A DNA stretch of 64,000 nucleotides, taken from positions 29,932 through 93,931 of IMG/VR virus record IMGVR_UViG_3300044833_000114. One strand, 5' to 3'. This document shows, in pieces, positions 17,748 to 52,119 of this stretch. Position 1 is the first letter of the stretch. Every line of letters starts with the position of its first letter. The translations under genes and the position numbers were made by a program. The notes beneath the pieces were generated by a model. That model had not been told where the DNA came from, did no database searches, and saw nothing but the letters and a program-made list of their open reading frames with translations. Source of the stretch: a virus.

Positions 17748-17878
17748 GCCTTCTCCTCTTCCGTCGGAGCGGGATCAACACCGTTCTTCTCCAACTTCTT
17801 GACGCGAGCTTCTAGTTTCTTTACTTTTTCTTCAAGTCCTTCAATTAGACTCTCAACCCACCATCGCGGCGCGTTCAT
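17744..17878 (-). CDS. Small coiled-coil protein (44 aa)
   Basis: The 44-residue product has a short leucine-zipper-like run (LIEGLEEKVKKLEARVKKLE) with Leu/Val at heptad spacing. The ATG overlaps the integrase 2 stop (ATGA), so it is coupled to that gene. It may dimerise; the partner is unknown. Confidence 0.6.
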   Translation of the reverse strand: MNAPRWWVESLIEGLEEKVKKLEARVKKLEKNGVDPAPTEEEKA

Positions 17879-18798
17879 GCGATCTCCTTAGGAAGCGTGA
17901 ATCCCAATCCAGCTTTCGCAGCCCACTGCTTGCGGAGCTCCTCTTTCTCGCCGAGCTTCGAATAACGATCGGTGATGCCCTGCCCTTCGTGGCCCACCCA
18001 GTAGCGGATGATGTCCTCAGGCACGCCGATCTCGCGCAGCCGGGTAATCCGGAGACGCCGGAATGCGTGGAAGCCCTTGATGCCCAGGGGCTTGAGGCTG
18101 TACTTCTTCAGGTGACTCTCCCAGAGGGGCGTGCCCTCGCTCGTCTGGAACAGATAGGCGCCGGCCGGGAGGGTTCGAGAGGCTGTGTAGCCAACCAGGA
18201 ACTCGTTCAGCTTAGGGTCCAGGTCAACGATCCGAACAGCCGCGGGGGTCTTTGGGTCCTGTTCCTGACGGCCCCACAGGCTCAGCCGGACGTCTATGGC
18301 AGCCTTTGTGGGATCCCAGCCTGTGTGCACCCCGTCCCAGCCGTATCGCACGGCTGTGGCTTCACCTATGCGAAGACCGGTACCTGCAAGGATGGCGTAG
18401 AACACTCCGTAGCGATCCTTGAGAGCTGCCGCCAGCTGCTCATCGGTGACCGTGGGTTGCTTCTGCTTGACGACCGGGGGCAGGTCGATGAACTTGTGGT
18501 TCCATTCTCGAGGATAGAGGAGCACTCCGTCTGGGCTGACAGCCGAGGCCACGATCTGCTTGGTCAGCGAGACCACCTCGGTGATACTCTTGGGGCCCAG
18601 GCCTTTCGCCTGCAGGTCCCGAGCGAACTTGCGTAGGCCTCCGTTGTTGAAGGTCGCGAGATCCTCGGCACCGAGCAGAGGCAGGACGTGGTTCTTCAGG
18701 TAGGAGTTGTAAGCCTGAAGAGTCGCAGGCTTGATCGGGCCGCAATTCCTCGTGGTTAGATCTCTCACCAATTCTTCCGACTGCTGCGCGAAGTTCAT
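17875..18798 (-). CDS. Tyrosine recombinase, integrase 2
   Basis: A 307-residue integrase-family protein. It has a core-binding helical domain (ATLQAYNSYLKNHVLPLLG) and a catalytic domain with Arg in TGLRIGEA, HAFRRLR (HxxR), VGHE and nucleophile Tyr in DRYSKLG. The stretch SAVSPDGVLLYPREWN is typical, from memory, of Acidobacteriota integrases. It lacks the N-terminal arm-binding part of integrase 1. It lies 4.4 kb from integrase 1 on the same strand, embedded among coupled mini-genes, without a tRNA fragment nearby. It could serve excision, resolution of dimers, or be inherited from another element. Confidence 0.88.
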   Translation of the reverse strand: MNFAQQSEELVRDLTTRNCGPIKPATLQAYNSYLKNHVLPLLGAEDLATFNNGGLRKFARDLQAKGLGPKSITEVVSLTKQIVASAVSPDGVLLYPREWNHKFIDLPPVVKQKQPTVTDEQLAAALKDRYGVFYAILAGTGLRIGEATAVRYGWDGVHTGWDPTKAAIDVRLSLWGRQEQDPKTPAAVRIVDLDPKLNEFLVGYTASRTLPAGAYLFQTSEGTPLWESHLKKYSLKPLGIKGFHAFRRLRITRLREIGVPEDIIRYWVGHEGQGITDRYSKLGEKEELRKQWAAKAGLGFTLPKEIA

Positions 18799-40371: not shown

Positions 40372-40593
40372 ATGTATTACGTTTGTGAGTGCGGTGAAGA
40401 GTTTGATGCAGAGCGGACCGGAGCGCGCGAGCACATGCTCGAGCAGCACCTGGACCTGATCGAAACCAGGTTCGATGATTTCCTATCCGACGTAATCGAC
40501 GATGATATCGACGTCTCGGATGCAGAGATCTACGAAGAAGCAATCGACGATGTACTCGACGACTTGCTCGACGAGTTCGAAGACGGAAACTAA
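40372..40593 (+). CDS. Acidic protein with zinc finger (73 aa)
   Basis: CECG and HMLEQH in the first 25 residues form a C2H2-like site; the rest is extremely acidic (DDDIDVSDAEIYEEAIDDVL). It may mimic DNA or sequester basic proteins. Its TAA shares a base with the next ATG (TAATG). Confidence 0.6.
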   Translation: MYYVCECGEEFDAERTGAREHMLEQHLDLIETRFDDFLSDVIDDDIDVSDAEIYEEAIDDVLDDLLDEFEDGN

Positions 40594-40952
40594 TGGAAAC
40601 CAGACTAACTAACGCCTGGTTGCAACGTCAGTTCAACCACTTCAATAGTGTCTACTTCGGTGGTCGGATCCACCCCTCAGTTAACGTCGTGTTCGGGAAC
40701 ACGCAGAAAGAAGGCTCCAATGGCCTTTATAACTACGCAACTCGAACAATCACTATCGACGATCAACAACGAAAACTGGGAAACGCTCGCCACATAAAGA
40801 CGGATCTTTTGCACGAAATGGTCCACGCCGACTTGGACATAAACGACGGGTACGTAGGAGACCAGATGGAGAAGGATTCATCTCACGGCGCTCGGTTTCA
40901 GGGGGAGATCTGCCGGCTGTGGAGGATCGGCGCATACGACGGATTGTTGTAA
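40593..40952 (+). CDS. SprT-like zinc metalloprotease
   Basis: A 119-residue SprT-family core: FNHFNSVYFGGRI at the start, GLYNYATRTITID, then HEMVH (residues 74-78) with a later HGARF supplying the third His. SprT/Spartan enzymes degrade proteins crosslinked to DNA, and phages carry small versions, possibly to clear DNA-bound proteins. A second, membrane-anchored member is at 47123. Confidence 0.85.
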   Translation: METRLTNAWLQRQFNHFNSVYFGGRIHPSVNVVFGNTQKEGSNGLYNYATRTITIDDQQRKLGNARHIKTDLLHEMVHADLDINDGYVGDQMEKDSSHGARFQGEICRLWRIGAYDGLL

Positions 40953-41243: not shown

Positions 41244-41705
41244 ATGCTCTGTACTTATGCCGGTTGCGGTCGTCAATCTTTAGTAAAAGGGATGTGCCAA
41301 AAGCACTATCAGAAGAAATACGAGAAGGAAAACCCCGATTACGTAGAGAAGAAGAAAGCAGCAACCCGAGCGTGGTACCGGCGTAATCCCTCGAAAACGT
41401 CAGCACACCGCATGAGTCCCAAAGCTAGGTTCGCCAATTTTAGAAAATGTGCGCAAAACAGAAAACTAGAAGTAACAGTTTCGTTCGATGAGTTTTGCTC
41501 TCTGATAATCCTTCCTTGCTTCTACTGCGGAGGGTCTTTGCCTCCCCAAGGGAGCGGCATCGACAGAATAAATTCTGACACAGGCTACGTGAACGGAAAC
41601 GTCAGACCGTGCTGCGGCTCCTGTAACACCGCCAAGAATACTATGACTGAGAATCAATTCAAGGAGTGGGTTCTTAAGGTATTCAACTATTGGGTGAGCC
41701 ATTGA
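41244..41705 (+). CDS. HNH endonuclease 1 (homing-type)
   Basis: N-terminal Cys/His knuckle (CTYAGCGRQSLVKGMCQKHY) and a C-terminal HNH-like domain: CFYCGG, then GIDRINSDTGYVNGNVRPCCGSCNTAKN. This is the layout of phage homing endonucleases of the recombination endonuclease/HNH group, which cut DNA lacking the gene. It stands between small genes and the first glycosyltransferase and shares only a short overlap with the next gene, as expected of an inserted gene. Confidence 0.85.
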   Translation: MLCTYAGCGRQSLVKGMCQKHYQKKYEKENPDYVEKKKAATRAWYRRNPSKTSAHRMSPKARFANFRKCAQNRKLEVTVSFDEFCSLIILPCFYCGGSLPPQGSGIDRINSDTGYVNGNVRPCCGSCNTAKNTMTENQFKEWVLKVFNYWVSH

Positions 41706-42643
41706 GATTCAACATCTGCACCAAACTGGACAACGGCGCGGGACTTGAAGCGGACTACCGTCTGCTCAAGTCCCTGCTGGAGTCTTGGGGCCACGTAGTC
41801 GAAGGAGTGAACCACTTCTACCCGTACCAAGCGTCCGAAGCGGATGTGAATATCTTTCTTGAGCTGATCGCCGAGCCTGTCATTGGGAGGGCGAAGCAAT
41901 CCTGGTTCATCCCGAACCCCGAGTGGTACAGCCTCTGTCACGACGCGCTGCTTACGCGGCTGGATAAGGTGCTCTGCAAGACGCGCGAAGCCTTCAACAC
42001 ATTCTCGCGGAAGGTCGGCGCGAATAGGTGCGTGCACATCGGATTCGAATCCAAAGATTTGTATGACCCGTCGGTCGAACGCCAGCGCAAGTTCCTCCAC
42101 GTAGCCGGCAAAAGCAGCTACAAGAACAGCGAAGCCGTCGCGTATGCATTCGCGAAATTCTTCTCATCGCCGTGGGACAAGGACGACTTCCGAGAACTGG
42201 TCTACGTCGGCGAAAACCAAAATCTCATGAACATCGCGCGCGACCACAAGAACGTCACGTACATCAAGCACGCCGGCGAAGATGAGCTGAAGCGCCTGAT
42301 GAACGAGTGCCTGTTCCACATCATGCCGAGCAAATCCGAAGGCTGGGGTCACGTCATTCACGAAGGTCTGGGATGCGGCGCCGTAATGATCACGACGGAT
42401 TTTCCTCCGATGAACGAGTTCACTGGGGCATCCGTATTCATCCCGTCGCAGAAGAATGAGCCGTGTTGCCTCGGTCACAACGCCTGGGTGGGGGCTTTCG
42501 ACGTCAGAGACTCCATCGAGAAAGCGTGGAAGATGACGCCAGCTGAGATCTTCGCAGCGCAGAAGAAAGCTCAACGTTATTTTTACCAGCAGCGTCAAGA
42601 GTTTCGAGATCGACTTAAACAGGTTGTAGACGGAGCTCTCTAG
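41702..42643 (+). CDS. Glycosyltransferase, GT4-like (GT-B fold)
   Basis: TTG at 41702 overlapping the HNH stop (TTGA) is the most likely start; a TTG at 41690 also fits. About 313 residues. The C-terminal half has MPSKSEGWGHVIHEGLGCGAVMITTD, the E-x7-E donor-binding motif of GT4 enzymes. The N-terminal domain binds the acceptor. It would transfer a sugar from a nucleotide donor. First gene of a sugar-transfer and methylation locus; the acceptor is unknown. Confidence 0.8.
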   Translation: MRFNICTKLDNGAGLEADYRLLKSLLESWGHVVEGVNHFYPYQASEADVNIFLELIAEPVIGRAKQSWFIPNPEWYSLCHDALLTRLDKVLCKTREAFNTFSRKVGANRCVHIGFESKDLYDPSVERQRKFLHVAGKSSYKNSEAVAYAFAKFFSSPWDKDDFRELVYVGENQNLMNIARDHKNVTYIKHAGEDELKRLMNECLFHIMPSKSEGWGHVIHEGLGCGAVMITTDFPPMNEFTGASVFIPSQKNEPCCLGHNAWVGAFDVRDSIEKAWKMTPAEIFAAQKKAQRYFYQQRQEFRDRLKQVVDGAL

Positions 42644-43278
42644 TGGAAGACATCGAAAAACTCGTACTACCCTACACCGGTGTTTCTCCGACGCGCGTGC
42701 ACGCCCTTCGCCTTTTAGCAGAACAGATCGAAGCGAAAGGGATTCTGGGGGACGTCGTCGAATGCGGAGTATGGAACGGCGGCACCGCCGCTTTGTTGGC
42801 TGCAACGGCTACCAGGTCCCCGCAGAAAAGGACCGTGTGGTTGCTGGATTCGTTTGAAGGCTTTCCGGCTTCTACGGAGAAGGACGGCGTGAGTCTTCGC
42901 GACAATCTTGTGGCCAAGGACTTCACCGGCAAGATTGTCGGCAACGTTCAAAAAGTAGAGGAAGTTCTTAGGCTGGTTGGCGCAGACATGGGTCAAGTGA
43001 AGATCCTACCCGGCTGGTTCAAAGACACTTTGCTGTCCGTCACCTCTGAGAAAATCGCGCTCTTGAATATTGATGCCGACTGGTACGCGTCCGTGAAGGA
43101 AGTTCTCGAGGCCCTTTACGACCGCGTGGTTCCCGGCGGTTTCGTTTCATTCGACGACTATGGCTTCTGGCCAGGATGTCGCGCCGCGGTTGATGAATTC
43201 GTAGCAGCAAGAAAACTGAACTTCGTGATGCACGACGTCGATCAGGATATGCGTTGGTTTTGCAAGGAGAGGTCATGA
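42643..43278 (+). CDS. TylF/MycF-type methyltransferase 1
   Basis: A 211-residue protein, GTG start sharing a base with the upstream stop. SAM site VVECGVWNGGTAALL, the family LDSFEGFP, and the metal-binding end IDADWYASVKEVLEALYD ... FDDYGFWPGC. TylF/MycF enzymes methylate sugar hydroxyls with Mg. Position after a GT suggests methylation of a transferred sugar. Confidence 0.88.
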   Translation: MEDIEKLVLPYTGVSPTRVHALRLLAEQIEAKGILGDVVECGVWNGGTAALLAATATRSPQKRTVWLLDSFEGFPASTEKDGVSLRDNLVAKDFTGKIVGNVQKVEEVLRLVGADMGQVKILPGWFKDTLLSVTSEKIALLNIDADWYASVKEVLEALYDRVVPGGFVSFDDYGFWPGCRAAVDEFVAARKLNFVMHDVDQDMRWFCKERS

Positions 43279-43835
43279 CCGTCGAATCTAGATCAGGCCT
43301 GGGCTCGTACTTGATAGAGACAGTAGCCATCCGAGAACAACTTCCGGTTCTGGTTCGAGAACTGGGTGTTCGTACCTTCCTCGACGCTCCGTGCGGCGAC
43401 CTCAACTGGATGAAGCAAACCAACCTCGAGGTTGAAAAATACATCGGTATAGATCTCCTTACAGACGACAACTGGTGGTCTTACGCCAGTCTGAAACGTG
43501 AGTTCCTGGTCGGGAACATCTTGTACTTCTACCTGCCCCGCGTCGATATGATTTTCTGCCGCGACTGCCTGGTGCATCTCTCGAACGCGTCGGCGATCAA
43601 GGCCTTAGAAAATTTTAAGCGAAGCGGCTCGAAATATTTGGTAGCCACTACCTACCCCAACGTCCGCACGAATAGTGATCTAGACGGCGACATGGTTGGT
43701 TGGAGGAAAGTGAATTTGGAACTGCCACCCTTCAATCTCGGAAATCCTCTGCGAATCATTACCGAAGCCGGCCCACGGTGCGAACCCGGACAAGACGATT
43801 TCGGAAAAGTGCTCGGCGTTTGGTCTTTGCAATGA
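43275..43835 (+). CDS. SAM-dependent methyltransferase, class I
   Basis: The ATG at 43275 has CAAGGAGAGGTC and overlaps the upstream stop. 186 residues with motif I TFLDAPCGDLNWM, an acidic YIGIDLLTDD and MIFCRDCLVHLS. It resembles small sugar or glycan methyltransferases. Substrate unknown; the neighbouring genes suggest a glycan. Confidence 0.8.
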   Translation: MTVESRSGLGSYLIETVAIREQLPVLVRELGVRTFLDAPCGDLNWMKQTNLEVEKYIGIDLLTDDNWWSYASLKREFLVGNILYFYLPRVDMIFCRDCLVHLSNASAIKALENFKRSGSKYLVATTYPNVRTNSDLDGDMVGWRKVNLELPPFNLGNPLRIITEAGPRCEPGQDDFGKVLGVWSLQ

Positions 43836-44548
43836 GAGACACGATGCAAAGCATGTGGGTGGGGGATCGACTGTCGTCGATGGAGCAGTTGTGCATCAAG
43901 TCGTTCCTCGACAACGGTCATCCGTTCCATCTGTACACGTACGGCGCCGTCGCAAACGTCCCCGAAGGTGCGACGGTCCTGGACGCCAACACCATACTGC
44001 CGGCATCAAGCATTTTCAAGACCTCCGGCGGCTTCGGCGACGGATCCTACGCCGGTTTCGCAGACCTATTTCGTTTCAAGCTTCTGATGGAAAAAGGCTC
44101 TTGGTGGGTGGACACGGATGTGATCTGCCTAAAACCTTTTGAGTTCGCAGGCGCTTTTGTTTTGACAGGCGCACCTCCCATCTACACCAACGCGATCATG
44201 AGGGTTCCGACGAATAGTATTTTCGCGTCCTGGCTGTATACAGAAGCCGAGCGCCGTCGATCCGTGGGAATGGCATGGGGGACGATAGGAACAAGGTTGA
44301 TCACCGAAGCGATCGCCACATTCGGGATGCAGGGGTACCTGTACCCGCACGAACTTTTCTATCCGATAGACGACCACATGCTGATTGCCTCAGGTCGATC
44401 ACAAGAAATTGATCAGCTGTGCGAAGGATCAGTTGGGATCCACTGCTACAACGAGTTGTGGCGACAATCCGGCCGAGACAAAGACGGCAACTACCCAGCT
44501 GACTGCTTGTATGAAAGGCTGCTGCGGAAATTTGGAATAAGGAATTAA
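43832..44548 (+). CDS. Glycosyltransferase, GT32-like, copy 1
   Basis: The ATG at 43832 overlaps the previous stop, which rules out the longer upstream frame. 238 residues. The start SMWVGDRLSSMEQLCIKSFLDNGHPFHLYTY and the DxD region GSWWVDTDVICLKPF are typical of GT32 (OCH1-like/capsular) enzymes that use a metal and a nucleotide sugar. It is paralogous to 46258-46968. Confidence 0.85.
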   Translation: MRDTMQSMWVGDRLSSMEQLCIKSFLDNGHPFHLYTYGAVANVPEGATVLDANTILPASSIFKTSGGFGDGSYAGFADLFRFKLLMEKGSWWVDTDVICLKPFEFAGAFVLTGAPPIYTNAIMRVPTNSIFASWLYTEAERRRSVGMAWGTIGTRLITEAIATFGMQGYLYPHELFYPIDDHMLIASGRSQEIDQLCEGSVGIHCYNELWRQSGRDKDGNYPADCLYERLLRKFGIRN

Positions 44549-44558
44549 GGAGACAGCG

Positions 44559-45164
44559 ATGGACTTCGAGCAGATCTTTCAACTAATTAGCAAAGACGAA
44601 CGCGTGCTGCTAAGCCGAGATCGGGCCCGGTGCCTCTACGACTGCGCACAAGATGCGCTGCGAGTCGACGGCGAGTATTGGGAGACCGGAGTGTTTCAGG
44701 GCGGCAGCGCACGTCTGCTGGCGGAAGTGCTACGTGGTAGGGATCGCACGTTGAGACTGTTCGACACCTTCGAAGGGTTCAAAGGTCTGACTCAGGAAGA
44801 TGGAGACTTCGGTCACGTCGGCTGGTTCTCCAACACATCCCTGGGGATGGTGAAGCAATTCGTGGACGCAGACTTCGCGCTCTACTACCCAGGCCTCGTG
44901 CCAGAGACTTTCGCCGGCCTCGAAAATTCGAAGATCGCATTCGCCCACCTGGACACGGATCTGTACGAACCCATCAAGGCTGCATTGGATTTTGTTCTTC
45001 CACGCCTGACACCTAACGGAATCATCGTTGTCGACGACTACGGGGACTCGAACTGGCCCGGTGTCAGGGCAGCTGTGATTGAGTCATTCGACCCAAAGAA
45101 GTTTCCCCTGAATCTGTACGTACGCAAGTATGGCGAGCACGATTGCCAAGCGGTGATTCGGTGA
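44559..45164 (+). CDS. TylF/MycF-type methyltransferase 2
   Basis: 201 residues, AAGGAGACAGCG upstream. YWETGVFQGGSARLL, LFDTFEGFKG, LDTDLYEPIKAALDFVLP and VVDDYGDSNWPG match the TylF family and keep the Mg-binding Asp residues. Paralogue of 42643-43278, suggesting two methylation steps. Confidence 0.88.
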   Translation: MDFEQIFQLISKDERVLLSRDRARCLYDCAQDALRVDGEYWETGVFQGGSARLLAEVLRGRDRTLRLFDTFEGFKGLTQEDGDFGHVGWFSNTSLGMVKQFVDADFALYYPGLVPETFAGLENSKIAFAHLDTDLYEPIKAALDFVLPRLTPNGIIVVDDYGDSNWPGVRAAVIESFDPKKFPLNLYVRKYGEHDCQAVIR

Positions 45165-45859
45165 GCGGGAAAGTCAGCATCATCATTCCCGTCTTCAACG
45201 GTCAACGATTCATCCACGATGCAATCGAGTCTGCGTTGGGTCAGACGTACAAGAACAAAGAAGTGATCGTGGTCGACGATGGTTCCACGGACATAACCTG
45301 GAACATCGTCCGCAGCTATCGGTTCCGCGCAATGGGCATCTGGCAGAAAAATTCTGGCGCATCCGCGGCCCGAAACAACGGGATCGCAAACTCTAGTGGA
45401 GAGTTCATTCTACCTCTCGATGCGGACGATCGGATCGATCCGCTGTACCTGGAGAAGACGGTTCCTTTGATGTCGGACTCTGCGGTTGGTGTCGTCACCA
45501 CGCAGTACCAGTGTTTTGAAAACGATGATCGCACGTTCCGTCCAGTTAATCCAACGCTCACCCTGGAGACGGCAGACAACGTCATTCCGGTCTGCTCTCT
45601 GATACGCCGTAGCGCATTCGATCAAACCCCTGGCTACACGAGTCGCTTTGTTGACGTCAACGGCGTCGGGGCGATCGGCTACGAAGATTGGAACCTGTGG
45701 CTCGACATCCTCAAGCGTGGGTGGAAGGTTGCCGTTGTGGACGAACCACTTTTTCATTATCGCGTGAAGGTTGCTCCAACGTGGAAGAAAGAACCGTCCG
45801 ATGAATCGTTGCGGCAAATCATTCGAAGCCTGCACCCAGAGTTGTACGGGAGAACGTAG
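45161..45859 (+). CDS. Glycosyltransferase family 2
   Basis: GTG at 45161 overlaps the upstream stop (GTGA). 232 residues of GT-A fold: VSIIIPVFNGQRFIHDAIESALGQTY, EVIVVDDGS, ASAARNNGI and the metal-binding DADDR. A late EDWNLWLDIL is the typical catalytic ED motif. It would add a sugar with inversion; the acceptor is unknown. Confidence 0.92.
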   Translation: MSGKVSIIIPVFNGQRFIHDAIESALGQTYKNKEVIVVDDGSTDITWNIVRSYRFRAMGIWQKNSGASAARNNGIANSSGEFILPLDADDRIDPLYLEKTVPLMSDSAVGVVTTQYQCFENDDRTFRPVNPTLTLETADNVIPVCSLIRRSAFDQTPGYTSRFVDVNGVGAIGYEDWNLWLDILKRGWKVAVVDEPLFHYRVKVAPTWKKEPSDESLRQIIRSLHPELYGRT

Positions 45860-46261
45860 ATGGGAGATACCATTCAAAACCTTTGCGGATGCGGGTGCGG
45901 AGTTCGTGTTGCACGAACGTTTAAACGCGGACACGGCGCCCGAGTCGGTAGAGGGCCGAGGACCCACGGAAGAACACACACTCCTGAATACTCTTCTTGG
46001 GATGCGATGAAAAGTAGATGCAACAACCCTAACACGAAAGATTGGGATAGGTACGGAGGGCGTGGAATAAAGGTTTGTGAACGCTGGATGTTATTCGAGA
46101 ATTTTCTTCAAGACATGGGGCCAAGGCCTGAAGGAACAACTTTAGACCGCAAAGATAACGACGGAAATTATGAACCCGGAAACTGTAAATGGTCGACGGA
46201 CTCTGAACAGGCCAAGAACAGAGCGAATAGAGAACGAACGGTCGGAGGACAATTCGCATGA
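45860..46261 (+). CDS. HNH endonuclease 2 (homing-type)
   Basis: 133 residues. CGCGCGVRV at the start, then the phage homing pattern [41 protein letters not shown] and [21 protein letters not shown]. It lies exactly between two glycosyltransferases with an ATGA overlap downstream, consistent with insertion of a selfish gene into the locus. Confidence 0.85.
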
Positions 46262-46968
46262 GAGACACCATCAGTAGCTTGTGGGTCGGCAGCTCCCTGT
46301 CTCCGATGGAGAACATGTGCATCAAGTCCTTCCAGCGACAGGGGCATCCGTTCCGGCTGTACGTCTACAACCCAGTCGCGAATGTTCCCGCGGGAACCCT
46401 CGTCGCCGACGCGGAGCAGATCGTCCCAAAGTCTGACATCGCGCGTTTTCAAAATCTCGCAAATTTCTCGGACTACTTCCGGTACTCGATGCTGTTTCAG
46501 AACGGCGGTTATTGGGTAGACCTGGACAACTTCTGCCTGCGGCCGTACGACTTCCCCGAAGAGTACGTGTTCTCTTCGCAGCTAACATCCGACCGCGGAA
46601 TGGACGAAGGAAACGCCGGAGTGATTAAGGCTCCGAAAAATAGTCCAGTGATGCAGTACTGCCTGAACAAGATTGATCGCATGGATGTGTCGAGATCCGA
46701 GTGGGCTGCGATCGGCCCCATCATGTTGCGCGAAACTTATCAGCCGCTCCGCCTGGGCCACTACATGAAGCCTCACCACACGTTTTGTCCCCTGCACTAT
46801 TTTGAGGCACCGGCCAACGTTTTTAGTTTCGGTACATGGGACATTCAGTTCCCTTCCTCGACTTACTCAGTCCACCTGTGGAACGAAGAAGCTCGTCGTT
46901 CCGGCATCGACAAGTACGCCGCGCACCAGGGAAGTCTCTTCGAGAGGCTGAAGGAGACGGTGCAATGA
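46258..46968 (+). CDS. Glycosyltransferase, GT32-like, copy 2
   Basis: 236 residues, paralogue of 43832-44548. Shared start [20 protein letters not shown] and [18 protein letters not shown]; DxD region [16 protein letters not shown]. Differences in the acceptor half suggest a different sugar or linkage. Confidence 0.85.
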
Positions 46969-47126
46969 TTCAGACCATTCTTGCTCTGCTCTCTCTGGCA
47001 GTGTCGATCCTCGGCATCTTCATGTCCCGCGCCAGGACGAAGAAGCTCGAAGATCGCGAGACCGCGATCGAGGCGCGCGAAGCAAGACTAGAACGCGCTG
47101 TCGGTTTGACGGGTGAATCCGAATGA
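46965..47126 (+). CDS. Small membrane protein (53 aa)
   Basis: ATGA overlap at 46965. One hydrophobic helix (TILALLSLAVSILGIFM) followed by a basic, charged coiled coil (KLEDRETAIEAREARLERA). It could recruit locus enzymes to the membrane; speculative. Confidence 0.65.
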   Translation: MIQTILALLSLAVSILGIFMSRARTKKLEDRETAIEAREARLERAVGLTGESE

Positions 47127-47521
47127 ACTCAAACACGAAACTTAAAGTGGTCTTAACCATAATTCTAGCTGTGATTTTCGTGTACATCCTTCAGGGCGCC
47201 GAGCCAATCTGTCGGGGACTGAAGCTCAAATACCTAGAGTACAACGACGCGTACTTCGACGGCGTGCTCCCACGAAACACAATCGTCGAATACGGAACGT
47301 GCCCAGACGCTCAATCAATAGCTTGTACGACGCACCCGGGAGATGTTTTTAAGATCACTCTCGTTAAGGAATACAACCTCGCTCCAGTTCAGGCGCACGT
47401 AAATCTGCTCCACGAAAGCTGTCACATCGTTACCTGGACGGAGTTGGAGGAACACGGGCCTAGATGGAAAGATTGCATGCACCGAATTTATCAAAAGGGT
47501 GCATTTGAGGGAATACTATGA
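47123..47521 (+). CDS. Membrane-anchored SprT-like metalloprotease
   Basis: 132 residues. Residues 8-24 are a membrane or signal segment (KVVLTIILAVIFVYILQG), then a SprT-like domain: YNDAYFDGVLPRN, HESCH (97-101) and HGPRWKDCMHRI as third-ligand region. The zinc site is intact. Two Cys pairs suggest an oxidising compartment, so the domain is probably periplasmic, unlike the cytosolic copy at 40593. Confidence 0.7.
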   Translation: MNSNTKLKVVLTIILAVIFVYILQGAEPICRGLKLKYLEYNDAYFDGVLPRNTIVEYGTCPDAQSIACTTHPGDVFKITLVKEYNLAPVQAHVNLLHESCHIVTWTELEEHGPRWKDCMHRIYQKGAFEGIL

Positions 47522-48411
47522 AAGACATCATCCTACTTCCAACTTACTATCGTCCGGAGTATCTGCAGCTCTGCCTCGAGCATCTCGCGCAAGCTGATGG
47601 CATCACGAACAAACAGATTTGGATTCTGCAGGACCAGCACCAGGACGACCTCATCCGTCACGCCGCCGAAGAGAACTGGACACAGGAAGTGCTCGCGGCA
47701 TGGCAACCATATCTCGCCCTGGACATCAAGTTCTTCCGAGCCTCCTCACACACCACCGTCGGGAACAGCCGAAACGTTCTGGAAGGATACCGGCGCGCGT
47801 TCGAAACAGACGCGCAGTTCGTCTACCAGATTGAGGACGACGTGTTCGTGCAACCAGATTTCTTCAGGTGGCACGAAGCCGTGCAGAACGATGGTGACTA
47901 TTACTGCTCGATTGCCAACGGCTGCTACTACCGAAACAAAGAAGTCCGCACCGACGTCACCGATCCCGGCGCCTACCTCACTTCACACAAAGACTTCGGT
48001 TCGTACGGCGTGTGCTGGCGCCGCGAGAAGATCGGTCTGTTCGTGGAGCACGCGCGCAACGAGTACTACACCAACATGGACAGTTACGTTCGTCAACACC
48101 TCTCTGGCACTCCGCTTGGGGACGCGTTCACGGAGCAGGACGGACTCATCGAGCGCGTGATGTGGAAGACGAACGGAGTCACCGCATGGCCTTATACGCC
48201 GCGCGCATACCACATGGGTTTTTACGGATATCACCGCGCCGGCCAGCGGCCTAACGGATTCCTTGAAGCCAAGCTGGAAGGCCTTCGCAAGATGGTTTCG
48301 GATCCCGCCACGTTCGCGAACCCAATCAACAACCCCTACAACGATTTGGTTCCCTTCCCCTCCACGCCCCCAGGCCCGTGGGAGAAGGTGACGAAGGTTC
48401 AGGAGTTCTAA
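47518..48411 (+). CDS. Glycosyltransferase, GT-A fold, EDD type, copy 1
   Basis: 297 residues. IILLPTYYRPEYLQLCLEHL at the start, a helix-strand region, then VYQIEDDVFVQPDFF with the acidic metal site (EDD). The C-terminal half is aromatic. It is paralogous to 48411-49250. The GT call is by fold pattern. Confidence 0.75.
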   Translation: MKDIILLPTYYRPEYLQLCLEHLAQADGITNKQIWILQDQHQDDLIRHAAEENWTQEVLAAWQPYLALDIKFFRASSHTTVGNSRNVLEGYRRAFETDAQFVYQIEDDVFVQPDFFRWHEAVQNDGDYYCSIANGCYYRNKEVRTDVTDPGAYLTSHKDFGSYGVCWRREKIGLFVEHARNEYYTNMDSYVRQHLSGTPLGDAFTEQDGLIERVMWKTNGVTAWPYTPRAYHMGFYGYHRAGQRPNGFLEAKLEGLRKMVSDPATFANPINNPYNDLVPFPSTPPGPWEKVTKVQEF

Positions 48412-49250
48412 TGCGAGACATCGTCATTGTGCCGACATACGATCGCCCAGAATTTCTTTGGGTCTGCCTCGAGCAGCTCTTCAAGGCGAAAGGCGCCAAC
48501 GAAAAGTGGGTGTGGGTCTGTGAAGATATTCACGCTGACAAGCCGAAGAGTTTTGTAACCGAAATGGAAATGCTGGCGACGATCCGGTATTTCGAAAACC
48601 TCACTGAAAGATATCTGTGGCCTAAGCTGAAGTATGTCGGACGAAAACCTCACACCACTTATGGAAACAGCTACAACCTCCTGGCCGCGGTGCAAGAAGC
48701 ATCGACGGCAGACGCGGAGAAAGTCTACATCGTTGAGGATGATGTTCTAGTAACGAAAGATTTCTTTGAGTGGAACGACCAAGTGTTCAGCAACTTACCC
48801 CCATGGGTTGCATGCGCCGGCCGACTGAACCGAAGTCTCAACTTCGCGATGAACGGGCCCGACGCAATGGACGAGAGCATCAAGGACGTCAACGCGTGTA
48901 AGGCTGTCATCGGCGCCTACAACTCCTGGGCGACATGTTTCAGCAGGCAAGCCCTAGACGAAATCGTCAGCATCATTCCGTCTTACGATACGTTCAGGCC
49001 AGGGTTTGAACAAGACATGCTGATTCAAAATCATATGAGACGTAACAAGCTAGTGTCTGTTTGGCCGTTCGTCGAACGTGCGTTCCACTTCGGTTGGACC
49101 AGTTACCACAGGTGCGGACGGCCCATCACAGGGAATCTTGAAGAAAAGGTGAAGTTCATTCAGACGGCCGTGCGTAGCAAAAGCATTCTGTGCGAGATGG
49201 CGTCGCTGCAAGAAATGGATACGTTCTTCGATCCGACGGAAGCTAGGTGA
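48411..49250 (+). CDS. Glycosyltransferase, GT-A fold, EDD type, copy 2
   Basis: The ATG at 48411 with CAGGAGTTCTA, sharing a base with the previous stop (TAATG). 279 residues: IVIVPTYDRPEFLWVCLEQL, KVYIVEDDVLVTKDFFEW and a GWTSYHRCGRP end that matches the paralogue. Last GT of the locus. Confidence 0.75.
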   Translation: MRDIVIVPTYDRPEFLWVCLEQLFKAKGANEKWVWVCEDIHADKPKSFVTEMEMLATIRYFENLTERYLWPKLKYVGRKPHTTYGNSYNLLAAVQEASTADAEKVYIVEDDVLVTKDFFEWNDQVFSNLPPWVACAGRLNRSLNFAMNGPDAMDESIKDVNACKAVIGAYNSWATCFSRQALDEIVSIIPSYDTFRPGFEQDMLIQNHMRRNKLVSVWPFVERAFHFGWTSYHRCGRPITGNLEEKVKFIQTAVRSKSILCEMASLQEMDTFFDPTEAR

Positions 49251-49699
49251 CGCCCGCGGCTCGAGCGCGGTATTTGATGGACAACTACAAGTTGACCATC
49301 GAGCAGTCTGATGCGATCGACGCTTATCAGAAGGGTCTTTGCGCCGTATGTGGTCGTCCAGAGCACGTCCCCGGTCGCCGCCTCGCAAACGATCACGCGC
49401 ATCTCGACGGTCTCATTCGCGGTCATCTTTGCTCGCAATGTAACCCTCTACTGGGAAAGCTGGAAAACGCCTTTATACGCCTAGGCCTACACAAAGTACC
49501 AGGTCTGGACTTCGTGCAAATTGTTGAAAACTTAGCGGCTTACGTGAAGAACCCCCCAGCCACGGCAGCTCTCGGCCAGCCTAAGTTTGGGTACCCGGGA
49601 AAGACGAACACCAAGAAACACCGAAAGATGCTCACGAAGCTTCGGAAGGTGGAGAAAGGCATGCCACCACTGGTCAGTATTACGGAGGAGCCGAAATGA
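49247..49699 (+). CDS. Recombination endonuclease VII-like
   Basis: GTG start overlapping the upstream stop. 150 residues: CAVCGRPEHVPGRRLANDHAHLDGLIRGHLCSQCN has the Cys/His/Asp set of endonuclease VII (His-Me finger), and LLGKLENAF follows as in T4 gp49. It resolves branched DNA before packaging. It may also be a homing-type member. The C-terminal MPPLVSITEE is echoed in the non-coding region at 38815-38844. Confidence 0.85.
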   Translation: MTPAARARYLMDNYKLTIEQSDAIDAYQKGLCAVCGRPEHVPGRRLANDHAHLDGLIRGHLCSQCNPLLGKLENAFIRLGLHKVPGLDFVQIVENLAAYVKNPPATAALGQPKFGYPGKTNTKKHRKMLTKLRKVEKGMPPLVSITEEPK

Positions 49700-50427: not shown

Positions 50428-52119
50428 ATGTCGCACAACACCGAAGCAGGGTCGGCACTAATCGCGGAGACAGTGAAAGTTTACGAGAAGAACGGTGGAA
50501 ACATTCGCGCCACCGCAATAGAGCTGGGTATCGCACGCAGCTCGGTTCGCCGGCGCGTCGCGAAAGTAGGCCTAGGAAAGAAGCCACTGGCTGGCGGAAC
50601 GCGTCACGGAGTCAAAGCGAAGGTCGAGAAGCTCCCGGTAAGCGGGGAGATCAAGAGATTCATCCTGACATCTGCGCAGAACAATACGTACGTCAACGAA
50701 GAATTTCTCGATAACTTGGAAGCCCTGTCCGATTACTACGACGCCGAGATCATAGTCGGAACGTACACCTACAATCAGAATGCCTACGGCCCCAAGAGCG
50801 TTAAGAAAGACAGTTGGAGATCGAAGGCAAGCAACGGTTCATACGACAAAGAACTCTGGTACGACCCGAAGCTAAGGGATTACATCAAGGATTACCGCAT
50901 CCAGTTGGCGCCGGGTCTTGTGTGGGCGGGTGAATACAATGCGCTCCCGACCAACGTCAACCCTCTAGCCGGACTCGAGTCATACACCAGCCGAAACTCC
51001 GCGATCTTCCCTCATGCCAAGTTAGCGCTGCGCAGCATCCCGACGATGCAAGGCGAAGGCGTGAAGCTGAACTACACCACGGGCACCGTCACCGAGCGCA
51101 ACTACATTCAGAAGCGCGAAGGCGTGATAGCAGAGTTCCACCACATTTACGGCGCGCTGCTTGTCGAAGTAAACGAGAACGGTAACTGGTGGGTGCGCCA
51201 ACTTAACCAGGACGAAGGCACCGGCACACTGCAAGACCTGCACGTTCTTGTGCAGCACGGCGAGGTCATCTCGACGGATGCAACCGTCGAAGCGGTGACA
51301 CACGGCGACCTGCACGGCACGATGGCAGATCCGGAAGTGGTCGAGACCACGCTGGATATGGTCGACGCGCTGAAACCCAAATACCAATTCTTCCACGACG
51401 TGATGGAGGGGGCGGCAGTCAATCCGCACATGCGCAAGTACGCGGCGAACCACGAGAAGTTTTACACATGGCTGCGTGGCTACCACAAGCTGGAGAACGA
51501 AATCGTTGACACCGTCAAGCTGATGGTGCGATACGTTCGGCCCTTCTCGCAGAACGTGGTCGTGGATTCAAACCACGACGACGCGTGGATCAAACGGTGG
51601 CTACGCGAGTACGACTACCGCAAGGATCCACCCAACACCGAGATCTTCCTGGACCTGCAAGCCTACCTGTATGGGCAGATCCGCAACGGCGTGACTGACG
51701 AACAGTCCCGCGCCCGCAACGCGAACCCGAAGTATGTGCGCGACATCAACGTGCTCGAGTATGCGCTGCAGAAGTACGGCGCCCTGCGGCCAGATCAATT
51801 CAAGTTCCTGAAGGCCGACGAACCGTTCAAGACCTGCGGCAAGAAGATCGAGAACGGCATGCACGGCCACCTGGGTCCTGCCGGAAAGTTCGGCAGCCCC
51901 GCGGAACTCTCGAAGATGGGCCGCAAAGCTAACACGGCGCACACACACAGCACCGGCATATGGAACGGCCTCTACGTCGCCGGCACGAGCAGCAAGCTGC
52001 GATGGGATTACACCAAGGGTCCTAGCAACTGGACCAACAGCCACATCCTGACGTACCCGAACGGCAAGCGCACGATCGTCACCGTCTACAACGGCGCGTG
52101 GAGAGCGGAGAGCAAATGA
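50428..52119 (+). CDS. HTH and metallophosphoesterase-like fusion protein
   Basis: About 563 residues; the ATG at 50428 (or 50425) has AAGGAGCTTTG. An N-terminal helix-turn-helix (GNIRATAIELGIARSSVRRRV, about residues 26-46) is followed by a large domain. Motifs in order: EFHHIYGALLVE, THGDLHGTM (like the GDxH motif), VVDSNHDDAWI (like GNHD) and NGMHGHLGPAG (like GHxH). This order is that of calcineurin-type phosphoesterases, which include phage T5 protein A1. Catalysis is inferred; the HTH suggests DNA binding. Confidence 0.6.
   Translation: MSHNTEAGSALIAETVKVYEKNGGNIRATAIELGIARSSVRRRVAKVGLGKKPLAGGTRHGVKAKVEKLPVSGEIKRFILTSAQNNTYVNEEFLDNLEALSDYYDAEIIVGTYTYNQNAYGPKSVKKDSWRSKASNGSYDKELWYDPKLRDYIKDYRIQLAPGLVWAGEYNALPTNVNPLAGLESYTSRNSAIFPHAKLALRSIPTMQGEGVKLNYTTGTVTERNYIQKREGVIAEFHHIYGALLVEVNENGNWWVRQLNQDEGTGTLQDLHVLVQHGEVISTDATVEAVTHGDLHGTMADPEVVETTLDMVDALKPKYQFFHDVMEGAAVNPHMRKYAANHEKFYTWLRGYHKLENEIVDTVKLMVRYVRPFSQNVVVDSNHDDAWIKRWLREYDYRKDPPNTEIFLDLQAYLYGQIRNGVTDEQSRARNANPKYVRDINVLEYALQKYGALRPDQFKFLKADEPFKTCGKKIENGMHGHLGPAGKFGSPAELSKMGRKANTAHTHSTGIWNGLYVAGTSSKLRWDYTKGPSNWTNSHILTYPNGKRTIVTVYNGAWRAESK

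Follow-up and report, generated by a model that had tools for sequence, protein, structure and literature searches.

Gene content of the locus

The stretch analyzed here, called the window, comes from an uncultured soil phage, is 64,000 nucleotides long, and spans bases 29932-93931 of the 93,931-base IMG/VR virus record IMGVR_UViG_3300044833_000114. At positions 41702-49250 it holds six glycosyltransferase and three methyltransferase genes, all intact and in a single + strand run that also contains an HNH gene, a 53-amino acid membrane protein, and a membrane SprT-like protein (Table 1). Pfam and PHROG matches, together with motifs, bear out this content, which an earlier sequence-only reading had listed, including the TylF type of two of the methyltransferases. 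The stop-start overlaps that it described are likewise real, with 1-4 nt overlaps at 11 of the 13 junctions from HNH1/GT4 through EDD2/endonuclease VII-like; of the other two, one leaves 10 nt free ahead of TylF-b and one, ahead of HNH2, has neither gap nor overlap (0 nt). Judging from the sequence, the six glycosyltransferase genes may be co-transcribed as one unit. The start codon of GT4 is TTG and overlaps the HNH1 stop, in agreement with the MRFN start of the homolog in a related phage locus, L015. The major capsid protein of the record (L001:14901-15932) is 64% identical to its counterpart in Tunturiibacter phage Tunturi_3, a podovirus of Acidobacteriota, and because of this match the host of the window phage is likely acidobacterial.

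Two pairs of glycosyltransferases and one pair of methyltransferases had been called paralogous, and the alignments confirm all three: GT32-a/GT32-b (33% identity, E 1e-44), EDD1/EDD2 (32% identity, E 4e-39), and TylF-a/TylF-b (32% identity, E 1e-20). Degradation of the named genes, raised beforehand as grounds for giving up the locus, is not seen. The genes are intact and their catalytic motifs are in place: EX7E in GT4, DxD in GT2 and both GT32-like proteins, EDD and EQD in EDD1 and EDD2, and HExxH in SprT2. Neither EDD1 nor EDD2 reaches a Pfam cut-off, and their assignment comes from a family profile and a structure model; the structure model of GT32-b is poor, with a predicted local distance difference test score (pLDDT) of 64.5. 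Hydropathy reveals no membrane helix in any transferase or methyltransferase of the locus, and its only two membrane proteins each have a single helix. Endonuclease genes were also said to lie at the edge of the locus and inside it, which needs some adjustment: HNH2 is inside, HNH1 lies just outside the 5′ edge, and the gene at the 3′ edge is the endonuclease VII of a conserved flank. A second SprT-like gene, weakly related to SprT2 (22% identity), is found just upstream of the cassette at window 40593-40952; in another related locus, L066, both SprT-like genes are located upstream of GT4.

Table 1. Genes of the window locus and its immediate flanks, with the evidence for each assignment
Gene	Position	Strand	Assignment	Evidence
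HNH1	41244..41705	+	HNH endonuclease, likely passenger, 5′ edge	homologs within L066 and L068 cassettes; no Pfam match
GT4	41702..42643	+	GT4-family (GT-B) glycosyltransferase, conserved first cassette gene	Pfam Glycos_transf_1 1.2e-8
TylF-a	42643..43278	+	TylF-type sugar O-methyltransferase	Pfam TylF 1.3e-48; similar to Che8 gp108
MT3	43275..43835	+	class I S-adenosylmethionine (SAM) methyltransferase	PHROG 3382 8.8e-42; homolog Mycobacterium phage Ariel gp17
GT32-a	43832..44548	+	GT32-like glycosyltransferase	DXD motif; Pfam Gly_transf_sug 0.0014 (just under curated cut-off); paralog of GT32-b
TylF-b	44559..45164	+	TylF-type sugar O-methyltransferase	Pfam TylF 9e-17; tblastn match to Che8 gp108
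GT2	45161..45859	+	GT2 glycosyltransferase without membrane helix	Pfam Glycos_transf_2 3e-33; hydropathy
HNH2	45860..46261	+	free-standing HNH-type endonuclease, likely passenger	phage HNH/endonuclease genes matched by blastn; no Pfam match
GT32-b	46258..46968	+	GT32-like glycosyltransferase	Pfam Gly_transf_sug 8e-6, above cut-off; 50% identical homolog in same slot of L015
Small membrane protein	46965..47126	+	membrane protein, 53 amino acids	single hydrophobic segment
SprT2	47123..47521	+	membrane-anchored SprT-like protein (HESCH), likely passenger	Pfam SprT-like 5.7e-5, narrowly missing the cut-off
EDD1	47518..48411	+	GT-A glycosyltransferase, phage EDD family	AlphaFold model; fold nearest GnT-I/POMGnT1; profile match GnT-I 4e-7
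EDD2	48411..49250	+	paralog of EDD1, final cassette gene	similarity to EDD1 (see text); same position in L015 and L066
Endonuclease VII-like	49247..49699	+	conserved flank, not cassette	Pfam Endonuclease_7 3e-15; kept in relatives without cassette

The GT4-EDD pair and its variable interior

The first gene of the cassette and its EDD genes recur together in other phages. A profile search for EDD returned 33 viral loci, five of which were set aside for having ~1 kb or less of upstream sequence, and a GT4 homolog lies upstream on the same strand in 27 of the 28 that were scored. The reciprocal search with a GT4 profile gave 80 loci, 71 of them in the subfamily (E < 1e-40), and among the 57 of these with at least 3 kb of downstream sequence, EDD follows on the same strand in 51, with one further locus having EDD upstream. 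Counted by lineage at 60% identity, EDD is downstream of GT4 in 26 of 31, while distant GT4s are linked to EDD in 0 of 9. When 50,697 phage records were queried with GT4 and EDD, both matched the same seven Streptomyces phages (Frankenweenie, Kradal, Kela, JustBecause, Satis, Quantum, and EhyElimayoE); the GT4 homolog of Frankenweenie, gp60, is 31% identical (E 3e-41). Between GT4 and EDD lie 0 to 12 genes, whose Pfam content is mainly FkbM and other methyltransferases, NDP-sugar epimerase/dehydratases, and glycosyltransferases. GT4 and EDD are therefore a conserved pair that dozens of diverse phages share, and the genes they enclose are exchangeable. Genes in the compared loci were called with a simple in-house caller, and the contigs may be incomplete.

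Profiles were required for these searches, as GT32-b and EDD2 used as single queries matched nothing in viral contigs. The lone EDD-profile match in bacterial genome contigs was spurious, being antisense to an acetate kinase-like gene. EDD may be absent from bacterial genomes, which is only suggestive because the one scan made works from peptide patterns. We also noted a conserved ~228-amino acid protein (MPPYN...PGVPxYAFGS) after EDD in several soil phages (L021, L031, L042-L046), which has no PHROG match; the same regions encode large proteins, some with signal-like N-termini.

AlphaFold models EDD1 confidently with a GT-A fold (pLDDT 90.5). Among solved structures, GnT-I and POMGnT1 come closest to the model, with MGAT2 next. 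GnT-I was also matched in a profile-to-sequence search (4e-7), with the EDD motif aligned on the EDD of GnT-I, and E106, D108, E206-Q207-D208, and H232 (EDD1 numbering) are among the residues invariant across 25 family members. The model, the GnT-I match, and the invariant residues support the assignment of EDD1 as a predicted metal-dependent sugar-nucleotide transferase. GnT-I and POMGnT1 are glycoprotein and protein-O-mannose N-acetylglucosamine (GlcNAc) transferases. EDD1 shares with GnT-I, POMGnT1, and MGAT2 (GT13, GT16) the fold and the aligned metal motif but is only 10-18% identical to them; the enzymes of the phage family are soluble proteins of about 280-340 amino acids. By sequence, only 1 of the 25 EDD members matches Pfam GNT-I, at 0.007, which does not place the family in GT13.

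Relatives of the window phage, located via a 563-amino acid gene downstream of the cassette (55-76% identical), in most cases retain this gene behind the endonuclease VII-like and membrane protein genes, in that order. No glycan cassette precedes the 563-amino acid gene in L003, L005, L007, or L010, and several relatives without a cassette in this slot encode glycosyltransferases elsewhere. In L015 the window's slot is filled by GT4, two different methyltransferases, a homolog of GT32-b, EDD1, and EDD2. In L066, GT4 is joined there by another GT4-like gene, EDD1, an epimerase-like gene, GT2-like and methyltransferase-like genes, and EDD2, and the same flank follows. The cassette genes common to the window, L015, and L066 are 44-66% identical. 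GT4 and EDD are common to all three but the interiors differ, which indicates on sequence grounds that the ends of the cassette are kept and the middle is exchanged among close relatives. Between the window and L015, EDD1 is under purifying selection, with a nonsynonymous rate (dN) of 0.28 and a synonymous rate (dS) of about 3, the latter near saturation.

The locus is not borne out as a recent piece of host DNA missing from relatives, which the sequence-only reading had held up as evidence against it, as versions of the cassette occupy the same slot in L015 and L066, though not in other relatives, and its composition matches the genome. The G+C content (GC) is 0.540 in the cassette and 0.542 in the window, and GC at third codon positions (GC3) and codon use resemble those of neighboring genes, so that recent acquisition of the cassette is not supported.

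Three further observations concern the relatives. A third EDD copy in L066 (L066:13094-13920) is seemingly split over two reading frames, suggesting duplication and decay inside the cassette. The highly conserved 563-amino acid protein (window 50428-52119) resembles a helix-turn-helix at its N terminus, matches nothing else in Pfam, and looks metallophosphoesterase-like by eye. Sister phages carry other large glycan clusters at another site (L062:4617-14941, L060:4025-11205, L063:7815-18265), which encode GDP-mannose 4,6-dehydratase, DegT aminotransferase, GT6, and GT11 and adjoin DNA-metabolism-type genes; the phage family as a whole therefore invests in glycans.

HNH2-type homologs (42-51% identical) stand beside glycan cassettes in L021, L031, L037, L042, and L044, hinting at homing-driven exchange. 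HNH genes, inside the window cassette, at its edge, and near several others, would also fit a loose set of selfish or auxiliary genes that homing endonucleases have carried in and that share no pathway, as would the differing interiors of close relatives. We consider this very unlikely, since it is mostly sugar and methyl enzymes that recur, the order of GT4 and EDD is kept, the genes overlap by 1-4 nt, the catalytic motifs are intact, and EDD1 is under purifying selection. SprT2 was considered as a pathway enzyme and rejected, because its homologs lie outside glycosyltransferase clusters in the sister phages G002-G004.

The target of the predicted glycan

In other phages the pair is often found among virion genes. 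The overlapping GT4 and EDD genes of Frankenweenie precede the major tail gene by about 1 kb, EDD adjoins the portal gene directly in L017, and portal or terminase genes are nearby in L025 and L038, with the L038 cassette beside TerL. L068 belongs to the wider family of the window phage, and its cassette has a gene homologous to that for the Tunturi_3 major capsid protein (1.7e-154) on one side and further virion genes on the other. The late module of the sister phages G002, G003, and G004 ends with a giant protein, and an EDD homolog directly follows it. When one flanking protein per lineage (n = 20) was compared with PHROGs, 12 of the 20 were portal, terminase (TerL), major head, or tape measure proteins, one was a DNA helicase, and seven were uninformative. 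Linkage to virion genes is thus present in many other lineages and in L068 but absent in the window genome.

The methyltransferases point to known clusters. TylF-a and TylF-b are related to gp108 of mycobacteriophage Che8, a gene two from gp110, which is reported to be essential for capsid glycosylation in the account of PMC12363180, citing Freeman et al. 2023; gp108 belongs to the tested cluster but is not the transferase reported essential. The mycobacteriophage virion glycosylation clusters (Che8 gp108-110, Corndog gp38, and Myrna; Freeman et al. 2023, cited in PMC12363180) resemble the window locus in having several glycosyltransferases, a methyltransferase-like domain, and overlapping + strand genes, and Che8 has an HNH gene close to its glycosylation genes. 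They differ in that the GT4-EDD pair was not found in them, the GT4 and EDD queries having matched Streptomyces phages only, and the window locus, known from sequence, exceeds them in size, encoding three methyltransferases and two glycosyltransferase pairs that are paralogous. The MT3 homolog, gp17 of the Omegavirus Mycobacterium phage Ariel, lies in a GT-GT-kinase-methyltransferase-protease-GT cluster (gp14-gp21; GT, glycosyltransferase) right after the major capsid gene. This cluster shares with the window locus glycosyltransferases and the MT3-homologous methyltransferase, and encodes a kinase and a protein annotated as a zinc-finger protease, but MT3 alone is clearly homologous, the glycosyltransferases differ, and the window locus is not beside a capsid gene. 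The seven Streptomyces phages encode members of both the GT4 and the EDD family in matching order, but in Frankenweenie (gp60-61) there are only two genes, with one EDD and no methyltransferase between. The earlier statement that no phage with this gene set was known therefore holds for the exact set, which was not found elsewhere, and not for its parts, given the GT4 and EDD bookends in dozens of phages and the MT3 and TylF relatives in mycobacteriophage clusters.

The sequence-only reading had proposed a methylated glycan on the virion, the host surface, or the DNA. The methylated-glycan part is supported, the evidence favors the virion among the three, and the SprT-like and HNH genes probably stand outside the pathway. 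The locus is probably a phage virion-glycosylation cassette that places a methylated glycan on virion proteins, given the GT4-EDD linkage, the virion-gene context elsewhere, the MT3 and TylF relatives in glycosylation clusters, the fold of EDD1 and the purifying selection on it, and the transferases and methyltransferases that lack a membrane helix.

Several points weigh against this assignment. The window cassette lies away from virion genes, between small early-type genes and replication genes; the tested glycosylation genes of Che8 are also at the far end of the genome. The flanking proteins probed were mostly the largest open reading frames, which biases the count of 12 in 20 toward structural genes, and EDD1 reaches TM-scores of only about 0.5 against solved enzymes, too low for its donor and acceptor to be read from the fold. 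We found no experimental study of the window phage or of a GT4-EDD pair.

Modification of the host envelope or of the DNA is less likely than a virion target. Conversion of the O-antigen or another surface glycan, which could for example exclude superinfecting phages, draws on the match of GT2 to GtrB-like PHROGs (7e-12), on the general background that phages carry seroconversion genes, and on a gene at window 17875-18798, with homologs elsewhere in the phage family, that appears phage-integrase-like by eye. GtrABC systems combine a polytopic flippase, GtrA, with a membrane-anchored GtrB, and the locus has neither a GtrA-like flippase nor a polytopic ligase, its GT2 has no membrane helices, and the GT4-EDD module of other lineages sits among virion assembly genes, all of which makes an envelope target unlikely. 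Hypermodification of phage DNA with methylated sugars against restriction appears highly improbable: the thymidylate-synthase/dCMP-hydroxymethylase family (PF00303), which would supply a hydroxymethylated pyrimidine to carry the sugar, was not found in G000 or four sister phages with controls working, a TET/JBP search was negative although its positive control also gave no match, Pfam gave no match to a T4-type DNA glucosyltransferase, and GT4-EDD recurs beside capsid, portal, and tail genes. In favor of a DNA target are the position of the window locus near replication genes, that of the sister-phage glycosyltransferase clusters near DNA-metabolism genes, and the existence of phage glycosyltransferases that decorate DNA, as cited in PMC12619734.

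For a cassette that acts on the virion, we infer the target, the sugars, the order of steps, and the biological role as follows. Cytoplasmic glycosyltransferases would use nucleotide sugars to assemble a short chain of sugars on at least one virion protein. The bookends GT4 and EDD may start the chain and perform an early or final step, GT2 and both GT32-like enzymes would lengthen it, and the TylF-type enzymes and MT3 would methylate sugar hydroxyls. The SprT2 and HNH genes would be passengers. With the ends kept and the middle open to change, related phages could give their particles different coats.

Glycosylation of the particle has been demonstrated in a few mycobacteriophages. We tentatively suggest that GT4 and EDD could form the fixed core of a phage-specific protein-glycosylation system, with a GnT-I-like enzyme not seen in the scanned bacterial genomes, and that an exchangeable interior of transferases, methyltransferases, and epimerases might diversify the virion coat in many soil and actinobacterial phages. 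The conserved two-gene core and variable interior would provide a sequence handle for recognizing these systems in phages that have not been cultured, those of Acidobacteriota probably among them. A simple test case is available in the cultured Streptomyces phages that carry the two-gene version. Such coats would bear on phage recognition, given that glycosylation of phage particles is reported to shield them from antibodies (PMC12363180, PMC11652166).

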